From: Winogradskyella eckloniae
GTDB lineage: Bacteria; Bacteroidota; Bacteroidia; Flavobacteriales; Flavobacteriaceae
Direction: 5' to 3'
Length of the DNA: 64,000 nucleotides
NCBI RefSeq assembly: GCF_013249045.1
Contig: NZ_JABRWP010000002.1
Span: forward strand, 186,001-250,000
Position numbers and translations under genes: made by a program. Shown in pieces: positions 39,746 through 62,341 of this stretch (position 1 is the first letter of the stretch; each line of letters opens with the position of its first letter). The notes beneath the pieces were generated by a model. It did no database searches, had not been told where the DNA came from, and was given only the letters and a program-made list of their open reading frames with translations.

Positions 39746-39814
39746 CCACGCAACACACGAAATGGTCCACTCGTCGAAAAACACAGAAAAGCATGCATGT
39801 AAACTTTAATTTTG
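39746..39814 (+). promoter_or_regulatory. LytTR-like site pair and promoter in the gap before the sensor operon
   Basis: CCACGCAAC (39746-39754) and CCACTCGTC (39767-39775) are 21 bp apart; TAATTTTG (39807-39814) begins 61 and 40 bp after them. It has the same -7 sequence and the same 61-bp spacing as the operon and T9SS-protein promoters. No protein gene starts nearby: the next is at 40281. Confidence 0.55.
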
Positions 39815-39821
39815 TAGTAGT

Positions 39822-40080
39822 TAATTTATTTATCCCTCAAATTAAAAACTAAAACGATGATGTACAATCAATTGAAATTTTAAAATTAAAATGAATTAAA
39901 GAAAATAAGACGTAAAATTCTCACTGATAGGGTTAGAAACGAAAATTGTTAGGTAATGCCTAATACTATTGTGTTGGAATACCATAAGAATTGAATGCGT
40001 TGAATAATGCAATTACCGCTTAAGTTGTTTGTTTTTAATAAACTACTGTAAAAAGATTGCAAGCCTCAACAAATGTAGAA
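39822..40080 (+). ncRNA. Possible small RNA or long leader
   Basis: A transcript from the promoter at 39807 would run through about 260 bp with no coding region. It contains a 5-bp hairpin with TAATG loop (39949-39963) and complementary stretches GGTAATGC (39952-39959) and GCAATTACC (40009-40017). No terminator is evident, so it might simply be read into the 40281 operon. Confidence 0.25.
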
Positions 40081-40085
40081 TTTTA

Positions 40086-40135
40086 CCGTTTATCGACGAT
40101 ATTCTTAAAATATCGATTAGTGAGCTTAAAATATC
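40086..40135 (+). promoter_or_regulatory. 21-bp ladder of LytTR-like half sites
   Basis: CCGTTTATC at 40086, AAAATATC at 40107 and AAAATATC at 40128 follow one another at exactly 21 bp; the latter two sit inside exact copies of CTTAAAATATC (40104-40114, 40125-40135). The first nonamer shares TTTTACCGTT with the site at 40161-40170. Confidence 0.45.
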
Positions 40136-40165
40136 CGTGTAGCCCACGTAAATACAACAATTTTA

Positions 40166-40255
40166 CCGTTCGTCGATAGTAAATTGCCATCCACCTAAAC
40201 TAAAGTACGCTCAAACGAAATCTACTAAGATTATAGAGATTTCTGAATAATTTTG
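40166..40255 (+). promoter_or_regulatory. Promoter of the sensor operon with LytTR-like site pair
   Basis: CCGTTCGTC (40166-40174) and CCATCCACC (40187-40195) are 21 bp apart and begin 82 and 61 bp before TAATTTTG (40248-40255). CCGTTCGTC equals the core of the AlgR box reported for the LytTR regulator of Pseudomonas. No TTTG -33 is seen, as expected for an activator-dependent promoter. The first ATG is 26 bp after the -7 element, so the operon is probably autoregulated by its LytTR product. Confidence 0.7.
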
Positions 40256-40280
40256 ACCTTGATAAATAAACAACGCAATT

Positions 40281-40691
40281 ATGAGTAACTTAAATATTTT
40301 ATTAATTGAAGATGATATGATAGAAGTTATGAAGCTGAATAGAGCAGTTTCATCATTAAAACTTCAGCATAATATTGTAGAAGCAAATAATGGAGAAGAA
40401 GCTTTAAAAGTTTTAGAGCAAAAAGATAAATTACCAGACGTTATTTTATTGGATTTAAATATGCCTAAAATTAACGGTATTGAGTTTTTAAAAATATTAA
40501 AGAGTGACGAACGATTAAAGTATATACCTACCATTATTTTAACAACATCTAGTAATAAAAGAGATTTATTGGCCTGTTTTGAGATAGGAATAGCAGGTTA
40601 TGTATTAAAACCGTTAAAATATGAAGATTATGTTTTTAAAATTGAAAAATTATTGTCATATTGGAGCATCAATGAGTTAATCACGGCATAG
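40281..40691 (+). CDS. Receiver-only response regulator
   Basis: A 136-residue single receiver domain: Glu10-Asp11-Asp12 acidic pocket, phosphoacceptor Asp58 (ILLDLNMPK), Thr in ILTTSS and Lys in VLKPLKYEDY. There is no output domain. In an operon that also encodes an HPt protein and two kinases, it fits as the intermediate phosphate carrier from kinase to HPt. It overlaps the H-NOX gene by one base. Confidence 0.9.
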   Translation: MSNLNILLIEDDMIEVMKLNRAVSSLKLQHNIVEANNGEEALKVLEQKDKLPDVILLDLNMPKINGIEFLKILKSDERLKYIPTIILTTSSNKRDLLACFEIGIAGYVLKPLKYEDYVFKIEKLLSYWSINELITA

Positions 40692-41230
40692 TGAAAGGAA
40701 TAATATTTACAGAATTCTTAGATTTAGTAGAAGAAAAATTTGGTTTAGCCATGGTTGATGAGATCATCAATCAATCAAATTTAGAGTCAAATGGTGTCTA
40801 CACTTCAGTAGGCACTTACGAGTTTTCTGAAATGTTACAATTAATATCGCATCTTAGTGAAAACACCAGTATTTCTGTAGATGATTTATTGTTGGTGTAT
40901 TCAGAACACTTATTTAAAGCCTTAATAAAATCTCATCCTAATTTAGTGGAGCACTACAAAGACCCATTAAATTTATTGGCTTCAATAGAAAATCATATTC
41001 ATATAGAAGTTCAAAAAATTTACCCAGAAGCACAATTACCAACATTTGTTTTAGAAGAAAAAACTAACGACAAATTGGTTATGGTATACAAATCCGAAAA
41101 GGCCTTGTATATGTTAGGCAAAGGGTTAATGTTAGAAACCTTTAAACTCTTTAAAACACCAGTAGATATAAAGTTTGAAAAACTGAATGATGCAGGTAGT
41201 GAAGTAAGATTCTTTATAGAAAAGATATAA
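40691..41230 (+). CDS. H-NOX heme nitric-oxide-binding sensor protein
   Basis: A 179-residue single H-NOX (HNOB) domain, the usual length. MKGIIFTEFLDLVEEKFGL, then GTYEFSEMLQL and the IHIEVQKIYPEAQLP segment match the family; His104 in HIHIEV is the expected proximal heme ligand. The heme-propionate motif YxSxR reads Tyr133-Lys-Ser135-Glu-Lys137, so the arginine is replaced by lysine. H-NOX proteins bind NO through heme and commonly control an adjacent histidine kinase, here the next gene. GTG start, one-base overlap on each side. Confidence 0.88.
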   Translation: MKGIIFTEFLDLVEEKFGLAMVDEIINQSNLESNGVYTSVGTYEFSEMLQLISHLSENTSISVDDLLLVYSEHLFKALIKSHPNLVEHYKDPLNLLASIENHIHIEVQKIYPEAQLPTFVLEEKTNDKLVMVYKSEKALYMLGKGLMLETFKLFKTPVDIKFEKLNDAGSEVRFFIEKI

Positions 41231-42831
41231 TGAAACAAACCCTTAAGGACGAAATAGAAATCTACAAAAGAGCCTTAAAAAGGGAAAAAGCTGCTAGAAA
41301 AGCTGCCGAAGAAATTCTAGAGCAAAAATCTACAGAGTTATTTGATATAACTCAAGAGTTAAAAAAAGCAAATTCTAAACTTCAAAAAACAGTTAAAGAA
41401 CAGAATACAGAACTGCAAGGTGTATTCGAAAATATTATTGACGCCTATATTGTAATGGATTTATGGGGCAACGTTCTAAAAATGAACGAAGCCGCTATTA
41501 GTCTTTTGGGTTATAATCACAGTAACAACGATTTTAATTTATTTGCAATTGCAGATAAAGACGAAATAGATAATGTCATGAGTACCTTTGAAGTGCTAAT
41601 GTCAGAAGGTTCGGTTACAGATTTTAAAGTAAAATTAAACACAAAATCCGGAAAACAAATCATAGCTCAAGTCAATGCAAGTGTCATTTTAGACGAAAAC
41701 AATAAAGCAATTGCAGCGCAAGGTATAATTAGAGATGTCACTTATGAAAATAAGTACAGACAAGCCATAGAAGCAGAAAAGCAAAAATACAGCCGTATTA
41801 TAGCAAACATGCATTTAGGTTTGGTTGAGTTAGATAAGGACGAAAAAATAATGATGGCCAACCAAAGCTTTTGTAAGATGACAGGTTTTACAGAAGAAGA
41901 ATTAATTGGTATTGTCGCAAAAGAAATATTACCAGCAGAAGAAGACAAGGACTTAGTTCACGAAAAAACAATAGAACGAAAAAGTGGTAAAAGTAACGCG
42001 TATGAAGCGCGCGTTAAAATGAAAAATGGCGACTTAAGATATTGGTTAATTAGTGGTGCACCTAATTACGATTTAAACGGCAACATTATTGGATCTATAG
42101 GTATAAGCTTTGATATCACAGATTTAAAAAATCTTCAACTTCAAAAAGAAGGGTTGTTAAAAACTTTAGAAACCAGAAACAATGAGTTGCATGAGTACGC
42201 ACATATTGTATCACACGATTTAAAATCACCTTTAAGAAGTATCAACGCATTAGTAAGTTGGCTAAAAGAAGATAATAAGTCTATTTTAGATGAGGTTAGT
42301 ATGCAAAATTTTGCACACATAGAAACGACCTTAGAAAAAATGGAGCAACTCATCACAGATATTTTAGCCTACTCTAGCGCTGGCTCTGAAGATAAAGAAA
42401 AGGCAGATGTAGACTTAGATGTCTTAGTCAATGATTTGGTTAAAATTTTATACGTGCCAGAACATGTTGAGGTTGTAATACCACATAAATTACCAGTAGT
42501 AAAGGGAGATCAAACAAAGTTGCAGCAACTCTTTCAAAATCTTATCAGTAATGCCGTAAAATTTATAGATAAGCCAGAAGGACTTATACGTATAAAAGTT
42601 AAAGAATTACCTAGTTATTATGAATTTTCGGTTTCAGATAATGGCATCGGAATTGATAAAAAATATCACGATAAAATATTTAAGATTTTTCACTCATTAA
42701 AGAAAAGTAAAGACTCAACAGGCATCGGTTTATCAATAGTTAAAAAAATTGTTGATCTCCATGAAGGGGAAATATGGTTAGATAGCCAAGTTGATTTAGG
42801 TACTACATTTTACTTCACAATAAAAAAATAG
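41230..42831 (+). CDS. PAS-domain histidine kinase, probable H-NOX partner
   Basis: A 533-residue cytoplasmic kinase with no membrane helix. Order: N-terminal coiled coil (1-60), two PAS domains (about 62-178 and 188-308), HisKA with His329 (AHIVSHDLKSPLRS), HATPase_c with DNGIGID and STGIGLSIVKK. No fused receiver. Its start overlaps the H-NOX stop (TAATGA), which suggests that the H-NOX protein acts on this kinase. The catalytic half is close to that of the second kinase at 43967, so they are probable paralogues. Confidence 0.9.
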   Translation: MKQTLKDEIEIYKRALKREKAARKAAEEILEQKSTELFDITQELKKANSKLQKTVKEQNTELQGVFENIIDAYIVMDLWGNVLKMNEAAISLLGYNHSNNDFNLFAIADKDEIDNVMSTFEVLMSEGSVTDFKVKLNTKSGKQIIAQVNASVILDENNKAIAAQGIIRDVTYENKYRQAIEAEKQKYSRIIANMHLGLVELDKDEKIMMANQSFCKMTGFTEEELIGIVAKEILPAEEDKDLVHEKTIERKSGKSNAYEARVKMKNGDLRYWLISGAPNYDLNGNIIGSIGISFDITDLKNLQLQKEGLLKTLETRNNELHEYAHIVSHDLKSPLRSINALVSWLKEDNKSILDEVSMQNFAHIETTLEKMEQLITDILAYSSAGSEDKEKADVDLDVLVNDLVKILYVPEHVEVVIPHKLPVVKGDQTKLQQLFQNLISNAVKFIDKPEGLIRIKVKELPSYYEFSVSDNGIGIDKKYHDKIFKIFHSLKKSKDSTGIGLSIVKKIVDLHEGEIWLDSQVDLGTTFYFTIKK

Positions 42832-42833
42832 CT

Positions 42834-43967
42834 ATGAAAACAGTTCAATTAATTAAGCGCAAAAATGAAAATTGGAAGTACTTATCTAAAAAAATGAACT
42901 TAAAAGAACCGTTAATATTAGTTTTTGGAAATCGTTATCTGCTAGAAGAAGAAAATGTATATACAGATTTAAAGGCAAAGTTTCCAGATGCTCATATTGT
43001 ATTTGGTTCTACTAGTGGAGATATTACCGCTTATTTTGTAACTGATGATAGCATGGTTGCCACTGCAATTGAATTTGAAAAAACGAAATTTGAGATAAAA
43101 ACGAGTAATGTTATCAATTCAGATTTAGACAGTTTTGTTACAGGCAAAAATTTAATAAATCAGTTTACAAAGGAAGGCTTAAAACATGTTTTTGTCATTT
43201 CAGAAGGCAGTTTTATAAACGGAAGTGAACTAACCAAAGGAATGAATGCTGCGGCCGAAAATAAAGTGTTAATAACAGGAGGTCTTTGTGGTGATGCAGC
43301 ACGTTTTGAGAAAACATTAGCCGCTTACAATGAGAATCCAAAACAAGGTGAAATTGTGGCCATTGGGTTTTATGGAGCAACTTTTGAAGCCTCTTTTGCC
43401 ATATATGGTGGTTGGTCGCCTTTTGGACCAGAACGTGTGGTTACCAAATCAAAATCAAATGTTTTGTATGAGCTCGACGGGCAACCAGCACTAGACTTAT
43501 ATAAAAAGTATTTAGGAGACAAATCTAAAGAGTTACCAAGCGCAGCATTATTGTATCCATTAAATGTAAAATCAGAAGAAGAAAAACAGTCTTTTGTACG
43601 TACAATTTTAAACATTGAAGAAGATACAAATGCCATGATCTTGGCTGGAGATATACCAGAAAATTCCAAGGTTCAATTAATGATGACCAACATTGATAAT
43701 ATTGCCAATGCATCAGAATTAGCAGCGACTCAAGCCTCAGAAAAAAGAAAAAACAAACCGCAATTGGCTATTTTAGTGAGTTGTATTGGTCGTAAACTTG
43801 TATTAGATCAGCGCATAGAAGAAGAAATAGAAGAAGTGGTGTCTGTTGTAGGCGATGATGTGGTGATATGTGGATTGTATTCTTACGGTGAAATAGCACC
43901 ATTTAATACAGAGATCAATTGCCAGTTGCATAACCAAACCATGACAATAACCTTAATTAGCGAATAA
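42834..43967 (+). CDS. FIST domain protein (NosP-like sensor)
   Basis: A 377-residue protein with FIST N-terminal (about 25-215: VFGSTSGDITAYF, VITGGLCGDAARFE) and FIST C-terminal (about 220-375: ALDLYKKYLG, YSYGEIAPF, HNQTMTITLI) domains. FIST proteins include NosP, a heme NO sensor usually coded beside a histidine kinase. Here a kinase gene follows with a one-base overlap. Heme binding cannot be confirmed from sequence; other FIST proteins may bind small molecules such as amino acids. Confidence 0.88.
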   Translation: MKTVQLIKRKNENWKYLSKKMNLKEPLILVFGNRYLLEEENVYTDLKAKFPDAHIVFGSTSGDITAYFVTDDSMVATAIEFEKTKFEIKTSNVINSDLDSFVTGKNLINQFTKEGLKHVFVISEGSFINGSELTKGMNAAAENKVLITGGLCGDAARFEKTLAAYNENPKQGEIVAIGFYGATFEASFAIYGGWSPFGPERVVTKSKSNVLYELDGQPALDLYKKYLGDKSKELPSAALLYPLNVKSEEEKQSFVRTILNIEEDTNAMILAGDIPENSKVQLMMTNIDNIANASELAATQASEKRKNKPQLAILVSCIGRKLVLDQRIEEEIEEVVSVVGDDVVICGLYSYGEIAPFNTEINCQLHNQTMTITLISE

Positions 43968-45019
43968 TGTCTTCATTATTAAAACGACAAATAAAAAAAT
44001 TTTTAAGCAAAGATATCGCCGAAAGTAAGTTATTGGTAGATTTTTTAGATGCTGTGAAGCGCTCATATACTAATTTTGAAGATCAGTATAAAATGCAACA
44101 ACGAGCAATGTCTATTAGTTCTGAAGAATTATTTGCCGCAAATAAGCAACTAAGAGAAGAAGCCGATTCTCAGAAGAAAATTATAGATAAACTAAGACGA
44201 GTAGTTGACACCATAACAGATTCTAATTCTAAAGATGGTAATGCCTTAACTCTAGAAAAAGATTTAGATGAATTAAAACTTATTGAGTTAATTGACAACC
44301 AAACTAAGGAGATAGTAAAAATTAATAAACAACGCGAAACACTTTTATCAGAATTAGAGCATCAAAACCAGGAGTTAAGTGATTATGCACATATGGTTTC
44401 ACATGATTTAAAGTCGCCTCTACGCAGTATTGAAACCTTAACAACATGGCTAAGTGAAGACTATAGAGGTTCATTTGATGATAATGGCAATAAAACACTA
44501 AATCTCATAAAGTCTAATGTCGAAAAAATGGATGGCCTCATTACAGGCATCCTAGAATATTCAACAATAGGCAAAAACAATATAGAATTTTACGATGTTG
44601 ATTTAAATAACTTGCTAGACAATATTTTAACGATTATCCATATACCAGATCATATCACTGTGAAGCGGTCAGAATTACCAACCGTTTCTGGAGATAAATA
44701 CAGATTGCAACAGTTGTTTCAAAATTTAATAGGAAATGGTATTAAATATAATGACAAAGAAGAAGGTCGCATAGAAATAGGTGTAACCGAAAAGGATGAG
44801 AATTGGGAGTTTTATATAAAGGATAATGGTGTCGGTATAGAAGAGGTTTATTTTGAAAAAATATTTAAAACCTTTGAAAAACTCGAAAACACAGTAGATT
44901 CTACAGGAATTGGACTTTCAATTGTAAAAAAAATAGTTGATCTATATGGTGGAAAAATCTGGTTAACTTCAAAAGTTAATGAAGGAACCACCTTTTACTT
45001 TACCCTAAAAAAGCAATAA
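43967..45019 (+). CDS. Cytoplasmic histidine kinase, probable FIST partner
   Basis: A 350-residue kinase without membrane helices. The N-terminal region (about 1-130) is helical and coiled (SSEELFAANKQLREEADSQKK), a type often seen in kinases paired with FIST proteins. HisKA has His146 (AHMVSHDLKSPLRS) and HATPase_c has DNGVGIE and STGIGLSIVKK. It lacks a receiver. It is separated from the HPt gene by one base. Confidence 0.9.
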   Translation: MSSLLKRQIKKFLSKDIAESKLLVDFLDAVKRSYTNFEDQYKMQQRAMSISSEELFAANKQLREEADSQKKIIDKLRRVVDTITDSNSKDGNALTLEKDLDELKLIELIDNQTKEIVKINKQRETLLSELEHQNQELSDYAHMVSHDLKSPLRSIETLTTWLSEDYRGSFDDNGNKTLNLIKSNVEKMDGLITGILEYSTIGKNNIEFYDVDLNNLLDNILTIIHIPDHITVKRSELPTVSGDKYRLQQLFQNLIGNGIKYNDKEEGRIEIGVTEKDENWEFYIKDNGVGIEEVYFEKIFKTFEKLENTVDSTGIGLSIVKKIVDLYGGKIWLTSKVNEGTTFYFTLKKQ

Positions 45020-45020
45020 A

Positions 45021-45338
45021 ATGGAACAACCTAATTTATCATATATACACAGCATGTCTGGTGGAGACGAAGCTTTTGAAAAGCAGTTAATAAGCATTAT
45101 AAAAGCAGAATTCCCAGAGGAGAAAAGCGTATATTTTAAAAACATGGCAGAAAAGAACAATAAACTTTCTGCAGATAACGTTCATAAACTTAAGCATAAA
45201 ATTAGTATTTTAGGCCTTGAGAAAAGTTATGATGTAGCCGTAGCATTTGAAAATAATTTAATAGAAGGCAGTACAGAACTGCAAGAAGAATTTGAAATGA
45301 TATTGCAAACTATGACCAACTTTTTAGAACAGTTATAA
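45021..45338 (+). CDS. HPt phosphotransfer protein
   Basis: A 105-residue helical protein with the HPt motif VHKLKHKISILGL; His55 is the likely phosphate carrier (compare AHxLKGSSxxLG). It would relay phosphate between the receiver protein (40281) and the LytTR regulator (45348), and perhaps to the receiver-GT2 protein at 62372. The gene lies between the second kinase and the LytTR gene, gaps 1 and 9 bp. Confidence 0.85.
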   Translation: MEQPNLSYIHSMSGGDEAFEKQLISIIKAEFPEEKSVYFKNMAEKNNKLSADNVHKLKHKISILGLEKSYDVAVAFENNLIEGSTELQEEFEMILQTMTNFLEQL

Positions 45339-45347
45339 AAAACATGT

Positions 45348-46064
45348 ATGAATTGTATTATTATTGATGATGAAGCTACAGCAAGAGCTATTATTGGGCA
45401 GTTATGTGCTAATGTAGATAGTTTAAATGTTTTAGAAGCGTTTCCTAATGCAATGCAGGCCATAAAGTATCTCAACCAAAATGAGGTTGATTTAGTGTTT
45501 TTAGATATTCATATGCCAGACTTTACAGGTTTTGATTTTATAGAAACTATAAAAAATCCGCCTAAAACAATACTAACCACGTCAGATCCTAATTTTGCAA
45601 TTCAAGCTTTTGAATACGATTGTATTGTAGATTACTTAGTAAAGCCAATTACACCAGAGCGTTTTCAGAAAGCGATTTTAAAAGCCGAGGCTGCAACTGT
45701 TACAACGTCTGAAGCAGAAGAACCATCCGTTGAGAAAGTAGAAGGAAGTTCTGGGAATGATTTATATGTAAATATAGATAGACGTTTAATAAAGATAGAT
45801 ATACCTAGTATTTATTTGGTTGAAGCCAAAGGAGATTACATTCTTGTAAAAACCGAAGAAAAAAATTACACAGTACATTCTACACTAAAAAAGATTGAAG
45901 AAAAGCTACCAGATGATTTATTTTTAAAAGTACATCGTTCTTATATTATAAATGTAGATAAAATTATTGATATTGAGGACAATAGCGTGCTTATTAAAAA
46001 AGATGTGATTCCTGTAAGTCGTTCTAACCGTCCGGAGTTAATGAAGCGACTTAATTTACTTTAA
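45348..46064 (+). CDS. LytTR family response regulator
   Basis: A 238-residue regulator: receiver domain with Asp7/Asp8 and phosphoacceptor Asp53 (VFLDIHMPDFTG), an acidic linker (about 122-135), and a LytTR DNA-binding domain (about 138-238: YLVEAKGDYILVKT, LPDDLFLKVHRSYIINVDKI, VIPVSRSNRPEL). LytTR proteins bind direct repeats about two helical turns apart. Pairs of such sites at fixed distance from -7 elements surround this operon and the following glycan locus, and I propose that this protein binds them. Confidence 0.93.
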   Translation: MNCIIIDDEATARAIIGQLCANVDSLNVLEAFPNAMQAIKYLNQNEVDLVFLDIHMPDFTGFDFIETIKNPPKTILTTSDPNFAIQAFEYDCIVDYLVKPITPERFQKAILKAEAATVTTSEAEEPSVEKVEGSSGNDLYVNIDRRLIKIDIPSIYLVEAKGDYILVKTEEKNYTVHSTLKKIEEKLPDDLFLKVHRSYIINVDKIIDIEDNSVLIKKDVIPVSRSNRPELMKRLNLL

Positions 46065-46067
46065 ATA

Positions 46068-46157
46068 CCATTCGTCGACAGAGAACGGTTGTTTAAAAGC
46101 CGAATCGGCATAGTGAACGAAAAACAAATAATCTCAAGACATGCCTTCTTAAATTTG
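46068..46157 (+). promoter_or_regulatory. LytTR-like site and promoter after the LytTR gene
   Basis: CCATTCGTC (46068-46076), 4 bp after the LytTR stop, begins exactly 82 bp before TAAATTTG (46150-46157), the same spacing as at the operon promoter. The 61-bp position (46089-46097, TTGTTTAAA) is degenerate. No TTTG -33 is seen. The next protein gene begins at 46395, after a terminator, so the product would be a short RNA. Confidence 0.55.
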
Positions 46158-46163
46158 CATCAG

Positions 46164-46243
46164 AAATACGAGTTAGGACGTGTTTTAAAGAAAATGGATT
46201 AGTAGTATAACTAGAGGCAAAAATTTTATTTTTGCCTTTTTTT
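46164..46243 (+). ncRNA. Candidate small RNA between the LytTR gene and the T9SS gene
   Basis: Bounded by the -7 element at 46150-46157 and the strong terminator at 46215-46243, giving an RNA of about 75-80 bases with no credible coding region. If the upstream CCATTCGTC works as proposed, it would be made under control of the LytTR regulator. The exact 5' end is estimated from the promoter. Confidence 0.42.
46215..46243 (+). terminator. Rho-independent terminator of the sensor operon / small RNA
   Basis: Ten-base perfect stem (46215-46224 with 46228-46237), TTT loop, T run to 46243. Confidence 0.85.
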
Positions 46244-46279
46244 ATACCTCTATTTTTCTGTGCTGCAAGCGCTACTAAT

Positions 46280-46369
46280 CTACTCGTCGACACTAAAATG
46301 CAATCCATCGTGGTTTGGGTTGTAACAAACGAAAAAGTAAAAATGCCGCCCTTTTATCAAGTAATTTTG
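46280..46369 (+). promoter_or_regulatory. Promoter of the T9SS protein gene with LytTR-like site pair
   Basis: CTACTCGTC (46280-46288) and CAATCCATC (46301-46309) are 21 bp apart and begin 82 and 61 bp before TAATTTTG (46362-46369), identical in geometry and in -7 sequence to the 40248 promoter. The ATG is 26 bp after the -7 element, also as in that promoter. Confidence 0.68.
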
Positions 46370-46394
46370 ACTCAGAATCAAATACGATTACAAG

Positions 46395-48995
46395 ATGAAA
46401 ACACTTTACACTTTTAGAAACCAACTATTTATTTTTGCTTTAGCCCTTTGTGGGTTTTCAACTCAAGCGCAAAACGATCCGTTTAATTGTGATTATAATG
46501 CCTATTTATTTCAGTATAACGATGTATATGCGATTGACTTAGCATCAGGGAATTCGTATCAGGTAGCCGCAGATGTTACGCCAGGTAGTATTAATGCGGC
46601 AGCATATAATCCTGCAGATGGTTTTATTTGGGGTTCATTAAGTACACCAGCAAAATCTATTGTTAGAATAGGTAATGACTTTACAACAACTACGTATTAT
46701 ATAGATGAGTTACCAAATAGCAATCGTTATGTAGGTGATGTGAGCGCAGATGGTATTTATTATTTAAAAGGTGGAGGAACAACATATTATAAAATTGATT
46801 TAAATCCTGAATCTGTAAATTATACACAGTTTCAATCTACTGGGACTTTATCGCAAAACCTTAGTATACATGATTGGGCTTTTAATGCAGTAGATGGTAA
46901 CATATATGCCGTTGAAAAAAACACCAATATTTTATATCGTATTAACCCAGAAAATGGTGTCGTAACAGCCTTAGGAGAAGTGCCAATTTTATCGGGATTA
47001 AATTACACCTATGGTGCTGTTTATTTTGATAATGAAGGGCGTTTCTATGTGTCTTCAAATCAAACCGGAACGATATACGTTATTCAAGCAGTTCAAACAG
47101 TATCTACAGCAGCAGATATAGAATCTAACTTATTTGCTTTCGGACCATCTAGTGCAAGTAATGATGGTGCACGTTGCCCAACAGCTCCTGTGTTACAAGA
47201 AATTTGTGATAATGGTATTGATGATGATGGCGACGGACTAATAGATTGTGAAGATCCTTCTTGTTCTGGTTTTGGTTCTTGTGAAGTGATTGCAGCACCA
47301 ACATCGAGTTCTAATAATGGAGGTTTAGAAAGTAACAACAGATTAGCTGAGCAAATAAATGCACGTAATTTTAAAAGAGCTAAAACAGGTTATAAGTTTG
47401 ACCCAACAACAGCACCAAAAGCTGTAAAAAGATCTAACTATGCGACTAAAAGTGCGAATTCAAATTTTACATTAGAAGATTTTATCCCTTTAACAACAAT
47501 TAATGAAGATGAGGCTGTAGAAGCGTCGCCATCAGACTTAATAGGTATTACAAACGCTACAGAAATTTACGCTGTAGATTATATTAAAAACAATAGTCCT
47601 ATTGCTTCTGTATTAGCGTTAAAAACAGAAAATGGTGTTTACGAGCACACTAAATATATCTGTGATCGTCTATTAGGTGGAGAACTAGTTAATGTCTCTA
47701 CAATGGATATTAACGAACAACAATTTATAAAATCTATTATTAAGAACGAAGACGGAACCTTTGAGTTTGTCTTAAGTCTATCTGCAAAAGTGGTTAATAA
47801 CGATGCGAACTTTGCTATAGAAAGCCACTGGAATTTAGATCAGTATGAAGCTAACGTAACGTTCTATAATTTTCAAATATGGTCTAACTCTATAGATGAT
47901 TTATATGCCTTAGGACAAGAGCTTTTAAATTTATTAGAAGTAGAGAAACCAATTACATCTTATAATATCTCTACACCACCAACAGTGTTTGTAAAAAGTG
48001 GAGGTTACTCAGATGGAGGGCTAGATTTACAGATTGTAAATACAAATGGCACACAAAGCATTACATTAGACGCAGGTTATAGAACTACAGAAACAGAGCC
48101 TTTTCAAAATTTAAATTATACAATTAACCTTAACGGAAACTATATTACAAACCTTAGAGTAGAAACAGGTAATTTGTTTGATATAGGATTTAGAATTGGC
48201 GATGGTATTGCCACACCAGACGATTTGTTTATGTCTGATGGTCCTTGGGGAATTGATGACTCTCAAACTGGTACTAACGTAAGTCTTTACGAGGTGTCTA
48301 CAAACTCAAATACCTTTGCTGCGGAAGATTATCCAATAGAAAGAAACGTAACATTAAATGCAACTACAGATACTTACGTTGCCGCATATAGAGCTTTAAC
48401 ACCGAGATTTCAGGCTGTAGACGTATCAGAGTACACAAGTTTTCAATTTAGTGCACAAGGTACAGGTGATTTAGAAATTACTTTTGTAAAAGAAAGTGTA
48501 ACAAACTGGGAAGAACAGTTTAAGGCAATCGTGTCTTTAACAGACCAATTACAAGCGTATACATTACAGATTGAAGACTTGGAAAACAATGCTTTTGATA
48601 CTGCAGAATTAAATGATGTGGTCACTATAGTATTTACTATGGTTGCAGAAAACGGAACAATGACTTCAAAATCATTAAATATTAGCGACCTACGATTCTC
48701 AGCACCAGAGGCATTATCCATAGATGATTACTCAAAGGATTTAGAGACTTTAACTGTTTTTCCTAATCCTATGAGCTCAAAAGCTACAATTAACTTCGCT
48801 GTTGACCAAAGTGAAACAGTACGTTTTGAAATGTATAACCAACTAGGTAAGCGCGTATATAGCACAATATATACTACAATACCAGGAAACAATAGCATAG
48901 AAATAAATAGAGAACGCTTAAGTTCTGGACTTTACTTCTGCAAAATTATAAGCAATCATTACAATTTTACACCAGTAAAACTCATTATAAAATAA
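46395..48995 (+). CDS. T9SS-exported protein with C-terminal sorting signal
   Basis: An 866-residue exported protein: signal peptide (to about STQAQ, residue 25), a repeat-rich beta domain (30-275) with a putative propeller-like fold, a short motif CDNGIDDDGDGLIDCEDPSC near 276-295 of the kind found in MopE-type and other Bacteroidota surface proteins, a large central region, and a type A type IX secretion signal (about 790-866, with LTVFPNPMSSKATINF and a GLYFCKI end). It is probably secreted or fixed to the surface. Function is not known. Its promoter matches that of the sensor operon. Confidence 0.85.
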   Translation: MKTLYTFRNQLFIFALALCGFSTQAQNDPFNCDYNAYLFQYNDVYAIDLASGNSYQVAADVTPGSINAAAYNPADGFIWGSLSTPAKSIVRIGNDFTTTTYYIDELPNSNRYVGDVSADGIYYLKGGGTTYYKIDLNPESVNYTQFQSTGTLSQNLSIHDWAFNAVDGNIYAVEKNTNILYRINPENGVVTALGEVPILSGLNYTYGAVYFDNEGRFYVSSNQTGTIYVIQAVQTVSTAADIESNLFAFGPSSASNDGARCPTAPVLQEICDNGIDDDGDGLIDCEDPSCSGFGSCEVIAAPTSSSNNGGLESNNRLAEQINARNFKRAKTGYKFDPTTAPKAVKRSNYATKSANSNFTLEDFIPLTTINEDEAVEASPSDLIGITNATEIYAVDYIKNNSPIASVLALKTENGVYEHTKYICDRLLGGELVNVSTMDINEQQFIKSIIKNEDGTFEFVLSLSAKVVNNDANFAIESHWNLDQYEANVTFYNFQIWSNSIDDLYALGQELLNLLEVEKPITSYNISTPPTVFVKSGGYSDGGLDLQIVNTNGTQSITLDAGYRTTETEPFQNLNYTINLNGNYITNLRVETGNLFDIGFRIGDGIATPDDLFMSDGPWGIDDSQTGTNVSLYEVSTNSNTFAAEDYPIERNVTLNATTDTYVAAYRALTPRFQAVDVSEYTSFQFSAQGTGDLEITFVKESVTNWEEQFKAIVSLTDQLQAYTLQIEDLENNAFDTAELNDVVTIVFTMVAENGTMTSKSLNISDLRFSAPEALSIDDYSKDLETLTVFPNPMSSKATINFAVDQSETVRFEMYNQLGKRVYSTIYTTIPGNNSIEINRERLSSGLYFCKIISNHYNFTPVKLIIK

Positions 48996-49019
48996 CCCTA
49001 ATTAATAGCAGTAAGAATC

Positions 49020-53300: not shown

Positions 53301-53346
53301 AATTAGTCTTTGTTAAACTTATTGCAAGTTACGTCGCATTTATGTT

Positions 53347-53416
53347 CCATTCATCTACAGCAACTTGTCATCCATCGAAATAGAAAGCGCATACGCGGAA
53401 ATGTTAAAGATATTTG
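53347..53416 (+). promoter_or_regulatory. Flippase promoter with LytTR-like sites
   Basis: CCATTCATC (53347-53355) begins 62 bp before GATATTTG (53409-53416, -7-like); TCATCCATC (53368-53376) lies 21 bp further on. This differs from the operon promoter in using the 62/41 positions, but stays on the same helical face. A weaker AGTTACGTC occurs at 53327. The message would carry a leader of about 165 bases before 53588. Confidence 0.5.
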
Positions 53417-53587
53417 TGTCAGATTTAACCGCATACAAATTAAGAAACTATATTTTTTTGATTCGCATTTTTAAAGAAAACCACATCAAAATTATAGTCA
53501 AAAATGGTTGCAAGGCGATCTACCAAGACAATATTAATCATATAGAAGCTGCTTAAAACCTTACTTTAAAACATATACCAACTCATC

Positions 53588-54835: not shown

Positions 54836-54999
54836 TCTCTGACGCTCATCACTCTAAAAAACAAGTGTAAATTCTACACTGAGATCGTCTCATACCTTTT
54901 TGGTTCAAAAGCGTCAATTCATCTGTCTAAATCTTAACTATCTACACTAAAATCATGCATTTAGCTTTTTTTTACGCGTTATTAATGGAAGTTTAAAAA

Positions 55000-55090
55000 A
55001 GCCTTGTCTAAAGATTAATTCCATTCGTCTACAGTAAAAGTCGTCTTACCGAAGCTGGCTAAGAATTAGAAAAATAAAACATCAAATTTG
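55000..55090 (+). promoter_or_regulatory. GT4 gene promoter with LytTR-like site pair
   Basis: AGCCTTGTC (55000-55008) and CCATTCGTC (55021-55029) are 21 bp apart and begin 83 and 62 bp before CAAATTTG (55083-55090). A weaker CAATTCATC is at 54915. The rest of this 291-bp gap (54836-54999) is AT-rich with no gene. No TTTG -33 is seen. Confidence 0.6.
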
Positions 55091-55126
55091 TATTGTAATT
55101 AAAAAGAATATTAAAAATTATTAAAT

Positions 55127-56332
55127 ATGAAACTAGCAGTTGTAACAGCATATCCACCAAGTAAAGTAACATTAAATGAATATGCATATCATTTAGTAAA
55201 GCAGTTTAGACAAAACCAAGACGTAACAGAACTTATTTTGTTAACAGACAGAACGGAAGGTGCTAAGGATATTCAGTTTACAGAGGCTGGTTGTAAGATT
55301 ACAGTGAAAGAATGTTGGTCTTTTAATAGCTATAGAAATATATTATCAGTGACTAAAGCAATTAACCAAACACAACCAGATTCAGTATTGTTTAACTTAC
55401 AATTTATGAAATTTGGAGATAAGAAAATTGCAGCGGCTTTAGGTTTAATGTTACCACTGGTATGTAAGTTAAAGAAAATCCCTAATATCGTTTTATTGCA
55501 TAATATTCTTGAAGAGGTCGATTTAGGAAGTGCAGGTTTTACATCAAATAAACTAATGCAAAGCATTTACGGATTTATTGGCACCACACTCACAAAGTTA
55601 ATCCTAAAAGCAGATGTAGTGGCTGTAACAATGCAGAAATATGTGGATATTTTAGAGGGTAAATATGGAGTAAATAATGTGAAGTTAATTCCACATGGCA
55701 CATTTGAAATTCCAGAAGAGCCAGATTATTCACTACCTAAAGGACCATTACAAATTATGACTTTCGGAAAATTTGGAACCTACAAAAAAGTAGAAGGCAT
55801 GATTGAAGCTGTAGAAATGGTAAGAGCTTCTACAGGTTTAGATCTTGAAGTTGTAATTGCAGGAACAGACAACCCAAATGTACCTGGTTATTTAGCAAAA
55901 GTACAAGAAGATTATAAGCATGTGCCACAAGTTCGTTTTACGGGTTACGTAGAAGAAGTAGAAGTACCAGTATTATTTAATGAAAGTGCTGTAGTTGTAT
56001 TTCCTTATACATCGACTACAGGAAGTTCTGGAGTTTTACACCAAGCAGGAAGTTACGGTAAAGCTGTGGTTATGCCAGATTTAGGTGATTTAGCTTTACT
56101 AGTACAAGATGAAGGTTATAAAGGCGAGTTTTTTGAGCCGACTAGTGTAGCGAGTTTAGCAAAAGCCATTGAAGCTATTGTTACTAATGATGCTTATAGA
56201 TTAGAATTAGCAAAGACCAATTATAAAGCCGCTACTGCGCATCCTATGTCTCAAATTGCAGACATGTATTTAGAGCGTTTTAAGCAGATAATTGCTAAGA
56301 GATCTAAAGATGTAGCGACTGTATCTGCATAA
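55127..56332 (+). CDS. Glycosyltransferase family 4
   Basis: A 401-residue GT-B enzyme. PHGTFEIPEEP near 195 and the C-terminal GT4 block (LQIMTFGKFGTYKKVEGMIEA at about 210; FPYTSTTGSSGVLHQAGSYGKAVVMPDLGDL at about 287-320) are clear; the E-x7-E stretch is modified. It would add a sugar from a nucleotide donor at the cytoplasmic face. The promoter has a LytTR-like pair at the same positions as the receiver-GT2 gene. Confidence 0.87.
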   Translation: MKLAVVTAYPPSKVTLNEYAYHLVKQFRQNQDVTELILLTDRTEGAKDIQFTEAGCKITVKECWSFNSYRNILSVTKAINQTQPDSVLFNLQFMKFGDKKIAAALGLMLPLVCKLKKIPNIVLLHNILEEVDLGSAGFTSNKLMQSIYGFIGTTLTKLILKADVVAVTMQKYVDILEGKYGVNNVKLIPHGTFEIPEEPDYSLPKGPLQIMTFGKFGTYKKVEGMIEAVEMVRASTGLDLEVVIAGTDNPNVPGYLAKVQEDYKHVPQVRFTGYVEEVEVPVLFNESAVVVFPYTSTTGSSGVLHQAGSYGKAVVMPDLGDLALLVQDEGYKGEFFEPTSVASLAKAIEAIVTNDAYRLELAKTNYKAATAHPMSQIADMYLERFKQIIAKRSKDVATVSA

Positions 56333-56370
56333 TAAAGGGAAAGTACTATTTTATTGAAATCGGTTAAAGT

Positions 56371-57888: not shown

Positions 57889-59102
57889 AGCTGTATTGAT
57901 TTAAATTCTTTTGATAAGCCAGCGGTTTCAATCTTAAAATTATAACTGCCGTTTTTATAAATAGCTGGTTTTAGTTTAAAACTAGTGTACCCGTTAAAAG
58001 ATGTTTTGGTTAATGTAGTAATAAGCGAATGGTCTTGGTAAATATGAAGTTTTATATGCAAACCATCTGGTATCATTTGTCCCATAAAACTTTGCAATGG
58101 TCCAATGTTGATTTGTCGGTTATGTTCTAAAAATTCAACATCAAAATCTTTAACAACTTGTTTGTAGCTTACAGTAATGCTATTACTCTCAGACATACCA
58201 TCTACGTAGGCTTTAACACTCCATTGATCTGCAAAATCTGGATGGATAATTTTTGAATTTGCAATACCATCAATCGTCGTTCCTGTGGTTTTTAAAATAT
58301 TTCCTTTTCCGTTTTTAATAAAAAATGTTACAAAAGTCCCATCGCTTACCACATTGTTTTGTTCATCTTTGATAATGGTAGTCCAAAATGTCGTTACCTG
58401 ATTGCCGTCTGCATAATCGTGTGGTCGCGTGGCAGAGATTTTAAAATCTGTAGGAATGGCTGGCATAACATTAATGGTGTATTCTTTAGAATTAATACCA
58501 AGACTTTCTGATGACACCAACATCCTTCCGCTTTCTTTTTTGGAATATATATTTCGGTAGGCAATTAAATTTTTAGTGAATATATCAAAACCTTCTTCTG
58601 AATCTAAAAACTGAAATTTAGCATCTACCAAAGTATGTGTTGGTACAGGATTGTCTAAAGAATCCGTTGGAATAACCACCAATGTGGTATAATCTTTTCC
58701 GCCTGCTTCAATACTTGGTGGACCAATATAAGTTTCCATTGTGGCTACTTCTGGTTTTGGTAAAATGTTTAGTTTTCCTGAAAGTGATTTGCTATCATCT
58801 AATAAAGTCCAGTTAACAGCACCAATTTTTTTAGTGATATTTTCAGGAATAATAAATTCTAAGGTGTTGTTTTTTAAGCTTGAAGATATAACGGTTGAAC
58901 CATAACTATTAGAACAGTATAAATCAAATGGAACATCACCTGAGGTTGAAAATCTTAGCATAACAGGTTGACCAACTTCAAATTCGGTTTGCGTAGAAAT
59001 TAATGTTATTTCAGTTGAAACAACTTTAGTGTGTTGCACAACAGCGAAGGATGATAATAACATCAACCCTAAAAGTAAAAGGTATGTGCGTTTTATTTGC
59101 AT
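57882..59102 (-). CDS. Exported protein with Ig-like domains
   Basis: A 406-residue protein with a signal peptide (hydrophobic 7-22). The rest is beta-rich with at least three Ig-like or invasin-like modules (about 30-115 TQTEFEVGQPVMLRFS; 125-215; 220-310 GTFVTFFIKNGKGNILKTTGTTIDGIANSKI). The last stretch (about 310-406) is another small beta domain. No catalytic motif is seen. It overlaps both neighbours by one to seven bases, so the three genes from 62191 to 56371 are one operon. Confidence 0.65.
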   Translation of the reverse strand: MQIKRTYLLLLGLMLLSSFAVVQHTKVVSTEITLISTQTEFEVGQPVMLRFSTSGDVPFDLYCSNSYGSTVISSSLKNNTLEFIIPENITKKIGAVNWTLLDDSKSLSGKLNILPKPEVATMETYIGPPSIEAGGKDYTTLVVIPTDSLDNPVPTHTLVDAKFQFLDSEEGFDIFTKNLIAYRNIYSKKESGRMLVSSESLGINSKEYTINVMPAIPTDFKISATRPHDYADGNQVTTFWTTIIKDEQNNVVSDGTFVTFFIKNGKGNILKTTGTTIDGIANSKIIHPDFADQWSVKAYVDGMSESNSITVSYKQVVKDFDVEFLEHNRQINIGPLQSFMGQMIPDGLHIKLHIYQDHSLITTLTKTSFNGYTSFKLKPAIYKNGSYNFKIETAGLSKEFKSIQLW

Positions 59103-62100
59103 TAATTAGGACTTCCTATATATGTGTTAATTTCAATTTTAATTCCACTAAAATCGAGATGGTCAATGGGTTGTAATTCCGCATTGGTATGATTTTTAAT
59201 TCTATTTGGTACTATTTTATCTGAAATATCTTCGTTTGGTAAACCGTTTACAAAGATGTTTTTCATATCATCGTTTATAATTTTCACATCACCATCAATT
59301 ATAATCGGATATTCAAAATGTTGCTTACGTTGTTGTCGCACACCAGCTTTTACAAACATATGGTCTACCCAAACCATATTTTGGTTATTATCGTAATAGG
59401 TTATTAATAATTGCGGAATGGTTATTTCTTGAATGCCACTATTAAACAAATTACCATTAAGCATACAGTCTTTAATATTCACATCACTTAACACAACATT
59501 TTTATACAAATCAGAACCAGACACATTTCCGGCAACTTGTAAGTTGAATTTTGTGGGTTGTTCTTCAAACTCTACAGGTGTAAATTCATCAGGATTAAAG
59601 GTATCTGGAATAGAATCTTGGGTTTTAGACCAGGCAATGCCTTCAAAATTAATTCTAAAACTACTCGATTCCTTAGGCATTAATTTGTGCTTTACGTGAT
59701 ATTTGGCATTATACGTAGCTAATTCTTTGTTATCTTCGTTGTAAAGAGTCCCTTTTAAAATAACATCTGCAGGTACATTATCTATATTTTGAACTTCGCC
59801 AATAATAGCATAACTACCATCAAACTGAACCAGTTTTGCTTGTATAACTTCTAAAACAGGTTGTTTTAAAATATCTTCGTGGTGTGTAGCTTCGGTTGTA
59901 ATTCTACGTCGACCTTGGTTAAAATATTTAGTCACATTATCAGAATACAACTGGTCTGGTGGTAAATCGTTGTTTAAATCATCGGGTTGTAAAAACCATT
60001 TGCCTTTTATTTTAGACAAGGATTTGTAATCTACTTTTTCAATTTTTTCTAATGGTGTAATCCATTGACTGGTCACTTTTGCCGAAACTGTACTATCGTT
60101 AAGTGCTGTGATTTCGGTTTCAATCGCGTCCATTTTTGCATAGCTACTTAATAAACCATCCGTTACCGAAATCTCTAACATGTATTGCGCAATTGGCACA
60201 TTGCTATTTGGGTCTATTAAGCTATGGGCTTTTTCAAATTCTTTAAAATCTAAAGCATCATAATAGGCCACAATAGCGTTTTCCGGACTGCGTTGTGAGT
60301 CGTTTTTTAGATAGAATAGATAGATGCCGTAAAAGACTATTATTGCTAAAACTAGAGACCAAAGGTGTGTAAGGCGTAACACATTGCTATTAAACTTGGT
60401 GTATGCCGTTGGGAATTTTAGAAAATCTGGTAATGGTTTTATTCGTGTTTTTAATGCCAATACAAATAGCATTTGTATGTTTAGAACAAAGGCCACCAGA
60501 ACCGTTAAAAACGGCATAATTCCCCAATGAATTTTTAACCATTTAGCAACATCTTCCTTTGGTAAAATAGCAGAAACTGGCGGAATGTTAAGGCGTTCCC
60601 AAACCATAATACCATTTTCTAATTGACGTAAACGTTGCCAACCACAGAAATAGAGAATGGGGTCGTAAAATTTATCGTTAGAGAAAATGTATTTAAGATT
60701 ATATTTTTCTGGTGTGGTTAAAAATTGCTGTAACGAACCAATACCAGCAACACCTTTAAATTTTGAATTTTCTAAGCGTTCTATTGGTCTTGTCGTTAAT
60801 TCTGGCAATCGCCTTGCAGAATGGTAATTACCATCTACCGTCATTGCATCGGTTTGCGCACTAAGCCAAGCCATTTGGTCACCAAAACCAAGGGTTAAAA
60901 ATCGCCATTTATCGTGGTCATCTTGGTTTAAGAAATTTACAATAGGCAACATTTTTATTTTCTGCGGTTGCGATGGTCTAAAGTAATTTAAACTCATGGT
61001 AAACACCACCATAAAAACCGCCAAACCAGCAAGTATGCCACCAATTATTCTATGATATACAGCACCAAATTTAGTTTGGATGAGAGTTTTTAAATCGCCT
61101 TCCACAAAGCGATAGGCAAATTCACCCATTAATGGTATTGATAATATAGAAGCCCAAAGCGTAAACCGGTCTAAGGTTAAGATGTTAAATGCCGTTTCGC
61201 CTAACATTTTTAACGGAATTGGTGTAGTGCCACCAGTACCTAAAACAAAACATATGGTTACGGATAAGCCAAAAAACAAATAACGTTTACTGTAATATCT
61301 ATAAAATATATAAGGCAATAATATGAGTAAAATTCCCCAAGGAATTAAAAAGAATACCAAACCTGAAGATGTGATTTCTAAAAAATTATCACGAGAACCA
61401 TGCGGAATTGGAACTTGGGTTATTGGGTTGGCTTTAGAGTTGAGCCAATACGGAAAAATACAACCTATAATTAATACTAAAGACAGCATGCCAAAACTCA
61501 CAATGCGCTTAAAGAGTTTGAAAAAGGTATTTAAGAATATTTTGAAAGTGACTTCTTTCATACTATTGACCTGTTCTCTTGAGACATCCATGAGCACCAT
61601 TCCTATTAAAGGAAAGATAAAAAAGACCATTCCAAAAATTGGTGTCACATGATGTGAGGTTACAGTCACTGCAATAAGAGATAAGCTGGTGGCTAAATAC
61701 CATTTTCGTCCTGTTTTTAGCCATAGATAGATTTCTGGCAAGGCATGCATTAATACCGAAACACCAACAATACTTGGTAATTGCCCAAAGATGTGAAGGG
61801 TTTCTATAAACGACGATGAAAATACGGCAAGCAGACAAGCATAACCTGCAACGGTTTTGTTACTCGTCATTAATAAAGAAAAACGATACGTCCCAGTTAT
61901 AAAAAGAACAATGGCTATTAAGGCCACACTAAACATACCAAACTTTAAGCCTCCAATTAAGGACAGTAAGCCAATGGACTGATGCACCAAAGGCGGATAA
62001 CTCTGTACAGTAAAGCCTGTGTACCACTCATAGTTCCATGGCTCAAACCAACTGTTCGCATAATGGTCTGCAAAAAACAAGTGGATTAAGGCATCATACG

Positions 62101-62191
62101 TAGTTTCTAAAGTAAAAAAGATAGCACTACCATGAAACGCTAAACCTAAGAGGAGCGCAGATATTAAGTATTTGTTAGAGGTTTCCTTCAT
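59102..62191 (-). CDS. Large polytopic membrane protein (PTPS-related, GT-C-like)
   Basis: A 1029-residue protein. The N-terminal half (about 1-580) has some 12 membrane helices and matches the family called 6-pyruvoyl-tetrahydropterin synthase-related membrane protein: ETTYDALIHLFFADHYANSW at about 29-48 and YPPLVHQSIGLL. The luminal acidic loop after the first helix is reminiscent of GT-C glycosyltransferases. After the last helix (about 620-640) comes an NTF2-like module (about 645-750) and two beta modules (about 780-1025). It could be a sugar or lipid-sugar transferase; this is inference. Confidence 0.65.
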   Translation of the reverse strand: MKETSNKYLISALLLGLAFHGSAIFFTLETTYDALIHLFFADHYANSWFEPWNYEWYTGFTVQSYPPLVHQSIGLLSLIGGLKFGMFSVALIAIVLFITGTYRFSLLMTSNKTVAGYACLLAVFSSSFIETLHIFGQLPSIVGVSVLMHALPEIYLWLKTGRKWYLATSLSLIAVTVTSHHVTPIFGMVFFIFPLIGMVLMDVSREQVNSMKEVTFKIFLNTFFKLFKRIVSFGMLSLVLIIGCIFPYWLNSKANPITQVPIPHGSRDNFLEITSSGLVFFLIPWGILLILLPYIFYRYYSKRYLFFGLSVTICFVLGTGGTTPIPLKMLGETAFNILTLDRFTLWASILSIPLMGEFAYRFVEGDLKTLIQTKFGAVYHRIIGGILAGLAVFMVVFTMSLNYFRPSQPQKIKMLPIVNFLNQDDHDKWRFLTLGFGDQMAWLSAQTDAMTVDGNYHSARRLPELTTRPIERLENSKFKGVAGIGSLQQFLTTPEKYNLKYIFSNDKFYDPILYFCGWQRLRQLENGIMVWERLNIPPVSAILPKEDVAKWLKIHWGIMPFLTVLVAFVLNIQMLFVLALKTRIKPLPDFLKFPTAYTKFNSNVLRLTHLWSLVLAIIVFYGIYLFYLKNDSQRSPENAIVAYYDALDFKEFEKAHSLIDPNSNVPIAQYMLEISVTDGLLSSYAKMDAIETEITALNDSTVSAKVTSQWITPLEKIEKVDYKSLSKIKGKWFLQPDDLNNDLPPDQLYSDNVTKYFNQGRRRITTEATHHEDILKQPVLEVIQAKLVQFDGSYAIIGEVQNIDNVPADVILKGTLYNEDNKELATYNAKYHVKHKLMPKESSSFRINFEGIAWSKTQDSIPDTFNPDEFTPVEFEEQPTKFNLQVAGNVSGSDLYKNVVLSDVNIKDCMLNGNLFNSGIQEITIPQLLITYYDNNQNMVWVDHMFVKAGVRQQRKQHFEYPIIIDGDVKIINDDMKNIFVNGLPNEDISDKIVPNRIKNHTNAELQPIDHLDFSGIKIEINTYIGSPN

Positions 62192-62250
62192 TTATAAGCC
62201 TAAGCAGTAACATATTGGTAAAGATATATAATTTAATAGAGGTTCACATT

Positions 62251-62341
62251 TTAATTATCTACAGCAATCTACCATTCGTCTACACTAAATATTAAGTTCA
62301 GCTAAATTTAAAATTTAATAGCCTAATCCCTAGTACTTTTG
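62251..62341 (+). promoter_or_regulatory. Receiver-GT2 promoter with LytTR-like site pair
   Basis: TTAATTATC (62251-62259) and CCATTCGTC (62272-62280) are 21 bp apart and begin 83 and 62 bp before TACTTTTG (62334-62341), the same positions as at the GT4 promoter. No TTTG -33 is seen. The gap is shared with the divergent 59102-62191 operon, whose own promoter is not clear. Confidence 0.65.

Follow-up and report, generated by a model that had tools for sequence, protein, structure and literature searches.

Our analysis concerns a stretch of 64,000 nt from Winogradskyella eckloniae (GCF_013249045.1, contig NZ_JABRWP010000002.1, positions 186,001-250,000, forward strand; this whole stretch is referred to as the window), in which a gene cluster carries, at seven promoters, boxes that resemble the binding sites of LytTR proteins. 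We consider, with a probability of about 0.8, that these sites are LytTR boxes and that the response regulator encoded from 45348 binds them and would activate the cluster, likely under nitric oxide, by way of a predicted phosphorelay and toward a presumed polysaccharide product. An initial annotation of this DNA had already proposed a LytTR-type regulon centered on the product of 45348, and this is the best-supported reading, given the geometry of the sites, their upstream, activator-like place, the absence of TTTG at -33 and the manner in which the box follows the LytTR gene from genome to genome. The boxes, their spacing, registers and conservation, and their linkage to the LytTR gene, were all established by computation.

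The boxes were scored with a matrix trained on the regions upstream of five target classes, namely the genes for the receiver (operon), the protein sorted by the type IX secretion system (T9SS), the flippase, the GT4 glycosyltransferase and the receiver-GT2 fusion; 158 of 174 regions entered, and the matrix converged on approximately YCATTCRTCKACASTWAA, a conserved box that is longer than the short core. The relatives compared were 60 of the 148 H-NOX loci (at most 20 kb each) of a family set of 397 genomes, of which 156 carry the LytTR orthologue and 241 do not, while 148 carry H-NOX and 249 do not. Together with the window, these relatives provide 61 operon promoters, and the genomes cover 45 genera. 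A -7 element was counted when TAnnTTTG, with no more than one mismatch, was found 61/62 or 82/83 bp from the start of the box. A second set of 80 loci, retrieved with the LytTR protein and overlapping partly in organisms with the first, is mostly drawn from Winogradskyella, Psychroserpens, Algibacter, Lacinutrix and their allies.

The boxes, the -7 elements and the operon and target genes given below all lie on the forward strand. At the operon promoter, a box at 40166-40183 (CCGTTCGTCGATAGTAAA; score 21.9) occupies register -82, a second box 21 bp further on, at 40187-40204, occupies register -61 (score 15.7), and an element in register -40 at 40208-40220 (CTCAAACGAAATC) retains the ACGAA that is kept in this register among relatives; the -7 element at 40248-40255 (TAATTTTG) is an exact TAnnTTTG at +82. 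The T9SS-sorted protein has two promoters, each with a box in register -82 and an exact -7 element at +82, the first at 46068-46085 (score 22.7) and 46150-46157 (TAAATTTG) and the second at 46280-46297 (score 21.0) and 46362-46369 (TAATTTTG). Ahead of a STAS gene remnant and the flippase gene, a box at 53347-53364 (register -61; score 23.0) is followed by one at 53368-53385 (score 5.8) in register -40, a register that is kept in relatives, and by a -7 element at 53409-53416 (GATATTTG), at +62 from the 53347 box. The GT4 promoter presents a box at 55021-55038 (register -61; score 27.7) and, at +62, a -7 element at 55083-55090 (CAAATTTG), the same CAAATTTG being the relatives' consensus, while the receiver-GT2 promoter contains the highest-scoring box of the window at 62272-62289 (register -61; score 28.3) with an exact -7 element at 62334-62341 (TACTTTTG; +62). 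Finally, a promoter upstream of the operon has a weak box at 39767-39784 (register -40; score 9.4) and an exact -7 element at 39807-39814 (TAATTTTG; +40). The start coordinates of boxes and -7 elements given in the initial annotation for all seven promoters were each found to be correct by direct position check, and its description of the -7 elements as TAnnTTTG-like also stands, as five of the seven (40248, 46150, 46362, 62334 and 39807) are exact and the two others (55083 and 53409) each carry a single mismatch.

Across the five classes, a box was found in 160 upstream regions from 61 loci, and 125 of these have the -7 element at one of the four offsets, as compared with an average of 2.9 for 84 other offset pairs used as a control. 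By class, this amounts to 39/61 for the receiver, 31/31 for the T9SS-sorted protein, 24/27 for the flippase, 25/34 for GT4 and 6/7 for receiver-GT2. The position of the 40166 box is kept throughout, with all 61 operon promoters boxed. LytTR sites in the literature consist of 9-bp repeats in direct orientation, mostly with 12 bp between them, i.e., a 21-bp step (PMC6193735 and PMC4064291). The secondary boxes found on the same strand in the 61 operon promoters agree with such spacing (9-bp repeats with 11-13 bp between them, a step of about 21 bp), as 47 of 51 lie at exactly 21 bp, 35 at +21 and 12 at -21. When the promoters are aligned by their boxes, three 21-bp registers are seen, at about -82, -61 and -40 from the -7 element, with strengths that are specific to each class. 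The fixed 21-bp phasing to the -7 element that had been described earlier is thus retained, although with three registers rather than two. In the second set, the operon box was found in 75 of 76 loci for which the first gene was located, and sites scoring above 18 numbered 289 on the strand of the LytTR gene and 0 on the opposite strand.

In every class, the boxes are more conserved than the spacer, the mean pairwise identity in operon promoters being 0.68 and 0.62 for the boxes and 0.41 for the spacer. As the spacer is less conserved than the boxes, it is the position that is kept, rather than the similarity reflecting recent descent. We thus rejected recent shared ancestry as the source of the pairs, since spacers diverged more than boxes across 45 genera.

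Several results should nonetheless be considered as weighing against this reading. The highest control offset pair (starting at 35) reached 21/160; no -7 element stands at any of the four offsets in 22/61 boxed promoters of the operon and 9/34 of GT4; and, in the second set, the -7 element (at most one mismatch) was in place for only 48 of 75 operon boxes. In the window, CCRTTCGTCGA with up to two mismatches matched 13 times as compared with 8.2 expected, a number reached in 6 of 100 shuffles, and TTCGTCGA with up to one mismatch showed no excess (20 matches, 23.8 expected). In the genome of W. eckloniae itself, CCRTTCGTCKACANNAAA with up to three mismatches matched 85 times and its reversed pattern 123 times, such that there is no overall genome excess of CCRTTCGTCKACANNAAA. 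Second copies in the window are also mostly weak, as those at 46301, 55000 and 39746 score negatively, those at 62251 and 53368 score about 5.5-5.8, and 40187 alone is good (15.7); the 21-bp pairing is, therefore, convincing only when the relatives are included. The short core alone proves nothing, and the window taken by itself makes a moderate case.

Could the sites then be chance matches to a degenerate motif, found by a reader who was seeking it? The small or absent excess of the short cores is what such an explanation would predict. It is, however, refuted at the level of conservation, both by the family-wide geometry and by a held-out prediction, and we regard it as hardly credible. For this prediction, a matrix was built only from the operon promoters of the 60 relatives, excluding the window and the other target classes, and was run over both strands of the window. 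The top eight sites were 62272, 55021, 46068, 46280, 40166, 53347, 40187 and 39767, which include the GT4, receiver-GT2, T9SS and flippase promoters, all outside the training set. The first five scored 19.4-26.9 and exceeded all of the maxima of 20 random 128-kb sequences (8.8-17.6). The scores of 53347 (15.5), 40187 (12.4) and 39767 (9.8) were below some of the random maxima, and these three sites are, therefore, within chance on score alone. Of the CCRTTCGTCKACANNAAA matches in the genome, all four with 0-1 mismatch and two of the eight with two mismatches are sites of the initial annotation in the cluster; the other six two-mismatch sites sit inside open frames that are between 495 and 3015 nt long.

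The initial annotation had also noted that none of the promoters has a good TTTG at -33, and this extends to the relatives, since none of the 125 aligned promoters has TTTG there, as compared with 3.2 expected from shuffling. This bears on the sign of regulation. As the sign cannot be read from sequence, the LytTR protein might repress rather than activate. Yet the boxes lie upstream of the -33 place, with none over the -7 element, and this, like the absence of TTTG at -33, is typical of activator-dependent promoters; published LytTR systems of the same layout are, moreover, positively autoregulated (PMC6193735). We thus deem repression quite unlikely and retain activation as the preferred reading. 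In Flavobacterium psychrophilum, the TAnnTTTG box covers -12 to -5 (PMC9723704), such that, counted from the transcript start, the three registers would lie at about -94, -73 and -52. In the case of AgrA, the center of the promoter-proximal repeat is near -60 (PMC4227749).

We next consider which protein binds the boxes. The gene at 45348-46064 encodes a response regulator with a LytTR DNA-binding domain, as had been stated for this mid-cluster position, with Pfam scores for both LytTR (75.9 bits) and Response_reg (66.2 bits) above cut-off, in agreement with the definition of a LytTR response regulator as a receiver plus a LytTR domain; Asp53 and Lys99 are kept in 60/60 sequences. Of the 156 genomes that carry the LytTR orthologue, 104 contain the exact box CCATTCGTCKACA, as compared with 22 of the 241 that lack the orthologue (p 3e-34), while the reversed CCATTCGTCKACA, used as a control, is found in 14/156 and 14/241, respectively. 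Because of this difference, the box could be used to find further members. Sorted by H-NOX, the exact CCATTCGTCKACA is found in 101 of 148 genomes with the gene vs 25 of 249 without. As LytTR and H-NOX co-occur (140/156), genomes in which the two are apart matter. In five such genomes (G172, G347, G382, G227 and G011), where the LytTR gene is separate, the promoter of the receiver-LytTR locus has boxes with best scores of 25-28 and a further copy after a 21-bp step, and the promoter of the H-NOX operon has no box scoring 12 or more. The boxes thus follow the separated LytTR locus, and we rejected the assignment of the box to H-NOX rather than to LytTR.

Some loci do not conform to this linkage and lower our confidence in it. 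Two H-NOX operons with no adjacent LytTR gene in the examined stretch are boxed nonetheless (G320, score 18; G179, score 13), although a third such operon (G197) has no box. Among 12 H-NOX-less LytTR loci examined, out of 16 such genomes, eight have a box scoring at least 16 somewhere in the stretch and four have none scoring 12 or more, two of the latter presenting diverged 21-bp repeats and one masked upstream DNA. In H-NOX-less genomes, the exact CCATTCGTCKACA occurs in 4/16 with LytTR vs 21/233 without (p 0.06), a weak link. One could thus propose that another factor, such as a LytTR paralogue encoded elsewhere, binds the boxes and that the 45348 gene is a mere neighbor. The boxed operons without an adjacent LytTR gene are in line with this, as are the LytTR matches with an E value of 1e-40 or better, of which the genome of W. 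eckloniae itself has three and related genomes up to seven. Set against it are the five genomes in which the 45348 orthologue has its own locus and the boxes stand there. Moreover, 30 of the 85 genome matches with up to three mismatches were examined for geometry; of the 79 non-window genome sites, these cover 24, and only one has a -7 element in the proper geometry, inside an 861-nt open frame, and there is, therefore, no sign of a wider paralogue regulon. We find a different binder very improbable, and the 45348 LytTR protein is, on sequence evidence, the best candidate. A search of solved structures with this protein returned mostly receiver-domain matches and no helpful LytTR-DNA complex.

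The operon that encodes the regulator suggests the signal. It begins with a stand-alone receiver protein (40281-40691; Pfam Response_reg; Asp58 in 61/61), followed by an H-NOX heme domain protein (40691-41230), a PAS histidine kinase (HK1; 41230-42831; Pfam), a NosP-like FIST protein (42834-43967; Pfam FIST and FIST_C), a second histidine kinase (HK2; 43967-45019; Pfam) and a 105-aa Hpt-like, putative phosphotransfer protein (45021-45338). This order of receiver, H-NOX, kinase, often FIST and a second kinase, Hpt-like protein and LytTR is kept among relatives, with LytTR present in 59/60 loci. The heme His and the YxSxR residues define H-NOX proteins. The window protein has the HNOB domain (Pfam, 124.7 bits), and His102, Tyr133 and Ser135 are kept in 60/60 sequences. 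The third YxSxR position is Arg in 55/60 and Lys in 5/60, including the window, and the FIST protein scored 60 bits against the NCBIfam NosP model (cut-off 450), both of which make the nitric-oxide assignment less secure. As FIST and FIST_C are present but the NosP model is far below cut-off, we refer to this protein only as NosP-like. For the 105-aa protein, the Pfam Hpt score (17.1 bits) is below the cut-off of 24.6, yet a helical bundle is predicted (predicted local distance difference test, pLDDT, 93), the top Foldseek matches are Hpt domains (template modeling, TM, score about 0.79; best E merely 0.024) and His55 is invariant across 22 aligned sequences. None of these lines is strong singly, and it is on all of them together that we call the protein Hpt-like.

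The account of the operon in the initial annotation holds as far as it goes, but it omits the H-NOX and FIST/NosP-like genes, which suggest the signal; to judge by its genes, the operon looks like a nitric-oxide pathway, widespread among Flavobacteriaceae, in which a LytTR response regulator would pass the signal on to polysaccharide genes. The regulon might, alternatively, be real and respond to a different cue, such as oxygen, redox state or another heme ligand, or receive no signal via H-NOX at all. The boxes kept in eight of the 12 examined LytTR loci that lack H-NOX favor this view, as does the capacity of H-NOX proteins to answer other cues, oxidative activation being named in the title of PMC7108781. 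It is opposed by the distribution of H-NOX, which accompanies the LytTR orthologue in 140 of 156 genomes but is encoded in 8 of the 241 that lack this orthologue, by the conserved heme-ligand residues and by a second likely nitric-oxide sensor, of the NosP kind, in the same operon. We thus regard another signal as unlikely, though deserving more weight than the alternatives discussed above, and continue with nitric oxide as the likely cue.

The promoters serve genes that mostly agree with those named earlier, i.e., the operon itself, a T9SS-sorted secreted protein (46395-48995; DUF6923; Pfam Por_Secre_tail and DUF6923), a polysaccharide flippase-like protein (53588-54835; Pfam Polysacc_synt_3), a GT4 glycosyltransferase (55127-56332; Pfam) and a GT2 glycosyltransferase with a fused receiver domain (62372-63556; Pfam Response_reg and Glycos_transf_2; Asp51 in 6/6). 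However, the 53347 promoter fronts a STAS gene in relatives, with the flippase gene behind it. In the 13 relatives compared for this (L098, L099, L121 and L126 among them), a STAS gene of about 92 codons lies between the box promoter and the flippase gene, and all four of the relatives' open reading frames (ORFs) tested match Pfam STAS. The window retains a 46-codon remnant frame (53416-53556), with a C-terminus like that of the relatives' STAS ORFs of about 92 aa and no Pfam match of its own. A 346-nt leader behind the flippase promoter was considered and rejected, as that stretch is the STAS gene in the relatives compared. SypA, a regulator of the Vibrio fischeri syp polysaccharide locus, is likewise a STAS protein. 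As for the 39767 promoter, boxed upstream promoters do exist in 12 relatives, 385-619 bp upstream of the operon box and with a -7 element of at most one mismatch, but they precede a small unnamed ORF, of which the window has no intact copy (40166 being the operon box, the stretch concerned is 39815-40165). The small protein encoded at this place in relatives (L093, L114, L120, L128, L133-L135, L140, L147 and L150) has about 90-130 aa and a core NLKxLEFI, which is present in 14/61 loci; the four tested gave no accepted Pfam family. The STAS and small upstream genes thus look lost or broken in the window, judging by sequence, while their promoters remain.

In the mechanism that we propose, the 45348 regulator would bind the boxes either as one dimer on a direct repeat or as a pair of dimers across the three 21-bp registers (-82, -61 and -40), and would activate weak promoters that have no -33 element. 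Besides its own operon, it would control the T9SS-sorted protein, the STAS-flippase unit and the genes for GT4 and receiver-GT2. Nitric oxide, as the likely signal, would be sensed by H-NOX with HK1 and, where present, by the NosP-like FIST protein with HK2, and these sensors would govern the flow of phosphate that reaches the LytTR regulator through the stand-alone receiver and the Hpt-like protein. The receiver-GT2 fusion, in which the phosphorylatable Asp is kept, may place polysaccharide synthesis under direct phospho-control. More tentatively, and at somewhat less than even odds, the whole may constitute a two-sensor (H-NOX and NosP-like) nitric-oxide phosphorelay that leads to a LytTR activator with three phased 21-bp boxes and governs a self-contained surface-polysaccharide program of Flavobacteriaceae, acting both on transcription and, through receiver-GT2 and STAS proteins expressed from its own target promoters, directly on enzymes.

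Known LytTR systems (AgrA, ComE, AlgR and the streptococcal LytTR Regulatory System, LRS) are alike in having 9-bp repeats with a 21-bp step upstream of the promoter and likely autoregulation, and AgrA and AlgR, like the window regulator, combine a receiver with a LytTR domain (PMC6193735, PMC4227749 and PMC4064291). The window differs from these in its box of about 18 bp, its three registers and its Bacteroidetes -7 promoter. Whereas an LRS pairs the regulator with a membrane inhibitor, the window cluster has a phosphorelay instead; it does not belong to that group, as the regulator has a receiver and its neighbors are kinases, H-NOX, FIST and the Hpt-like protein. The best copies had earlier been equated with the AlgR core, and this is true only of 40166, CCATTCGTC being one base off the AlgR core CCGTTCGTC. 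The boxes share 8 or 9 of 9 core bases with the Pseudomonas AlgR sites (CCGTTCGTC) and both are linked to exopolysaccharide, a likeness that concerns only the box core. AlgR sites need not take the form of direct repeats with a 12-bp separation (PMC4064291), whereas the 21-bp step is the rule in the flavobacterial boxes.

In Vibrio fischeri, the HnoX-HahK-SypG pathway is similar in that a nitric-oxide sensor and a kinase govern transcription of the syp polysaccharide locus, with the further regulator SypA acting below transcription (PMC12369376). There, however, the output is SypG, in another phylum, while the window's transcriptional output is a LytTR response regulator, with nitric-oxide sensors, regulator and targets in one cluster, such that it does not represent syp-type control. 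By analogy, HnoX-HahK control of syp would be the nearest functional parallel, with a different output regulator. Proteobacterial H-NOX/NosP pathways are also alike, since their sensors act on histidine kinases, receivers and Hpt proteins that steer biofilm. They differ in output, which is for the most part cyclic-di-GMP enzymes or quorum sensing, with the transcription factor HnoC in Shewanella; no LytTR output was met in the accessible sections of this source (PMC8738867). A literature search, with most subscription journals outside its scope, yielded no recognizable account of an H-NOX to LytTR pathway or of these flavobacterial boxes. While the type of site is known, the long box, the three registers and the H-NOX/NosP-like coupling were thus not found in the literature searched. 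The cluster would provide a sequence-defined, testable regulon in a phylum with few known transcription-factor sites and would connect surface-polysaccharide genes with predicted nitric-oxide sensing along a path that is distinct from cyclic-di-GMP. With the exact box, registers and promoter positions in hand, binding, signal and sign are directly testable in cultured marine strains.

Downstream of the operon, many loci contain the T9SS-sorted protein, an opposite-strand TPR protein, the flippase and GT4, and some contain glycosidase-like, Big-domain and 1029-aa proteins and receiver-GT2. The 1029-aa protein (59102-62191 in the window) has no Pfam or NCBIfam match and is conserved in the cluster of several relatives. 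One locus (L143, genome G131) has two successive pairs of Hpt-like and LytTR genes within one operon. When genomes were searched at class level, 2 of 247, both from Flavobacteriaceae, had the regulator (E up to 1e-65). Two records that bear the names Portibacter lacus and uncultured Saprospiraceae (L255 and L246) also contain it, with identities of 81 and 79 percent, and these we take to lie outside Flavobacteriaceae; transfer between families or misbinning is a possible origin of these copies. The first of these records (L255) contains the entire operon, with the box and an exact -7 element.

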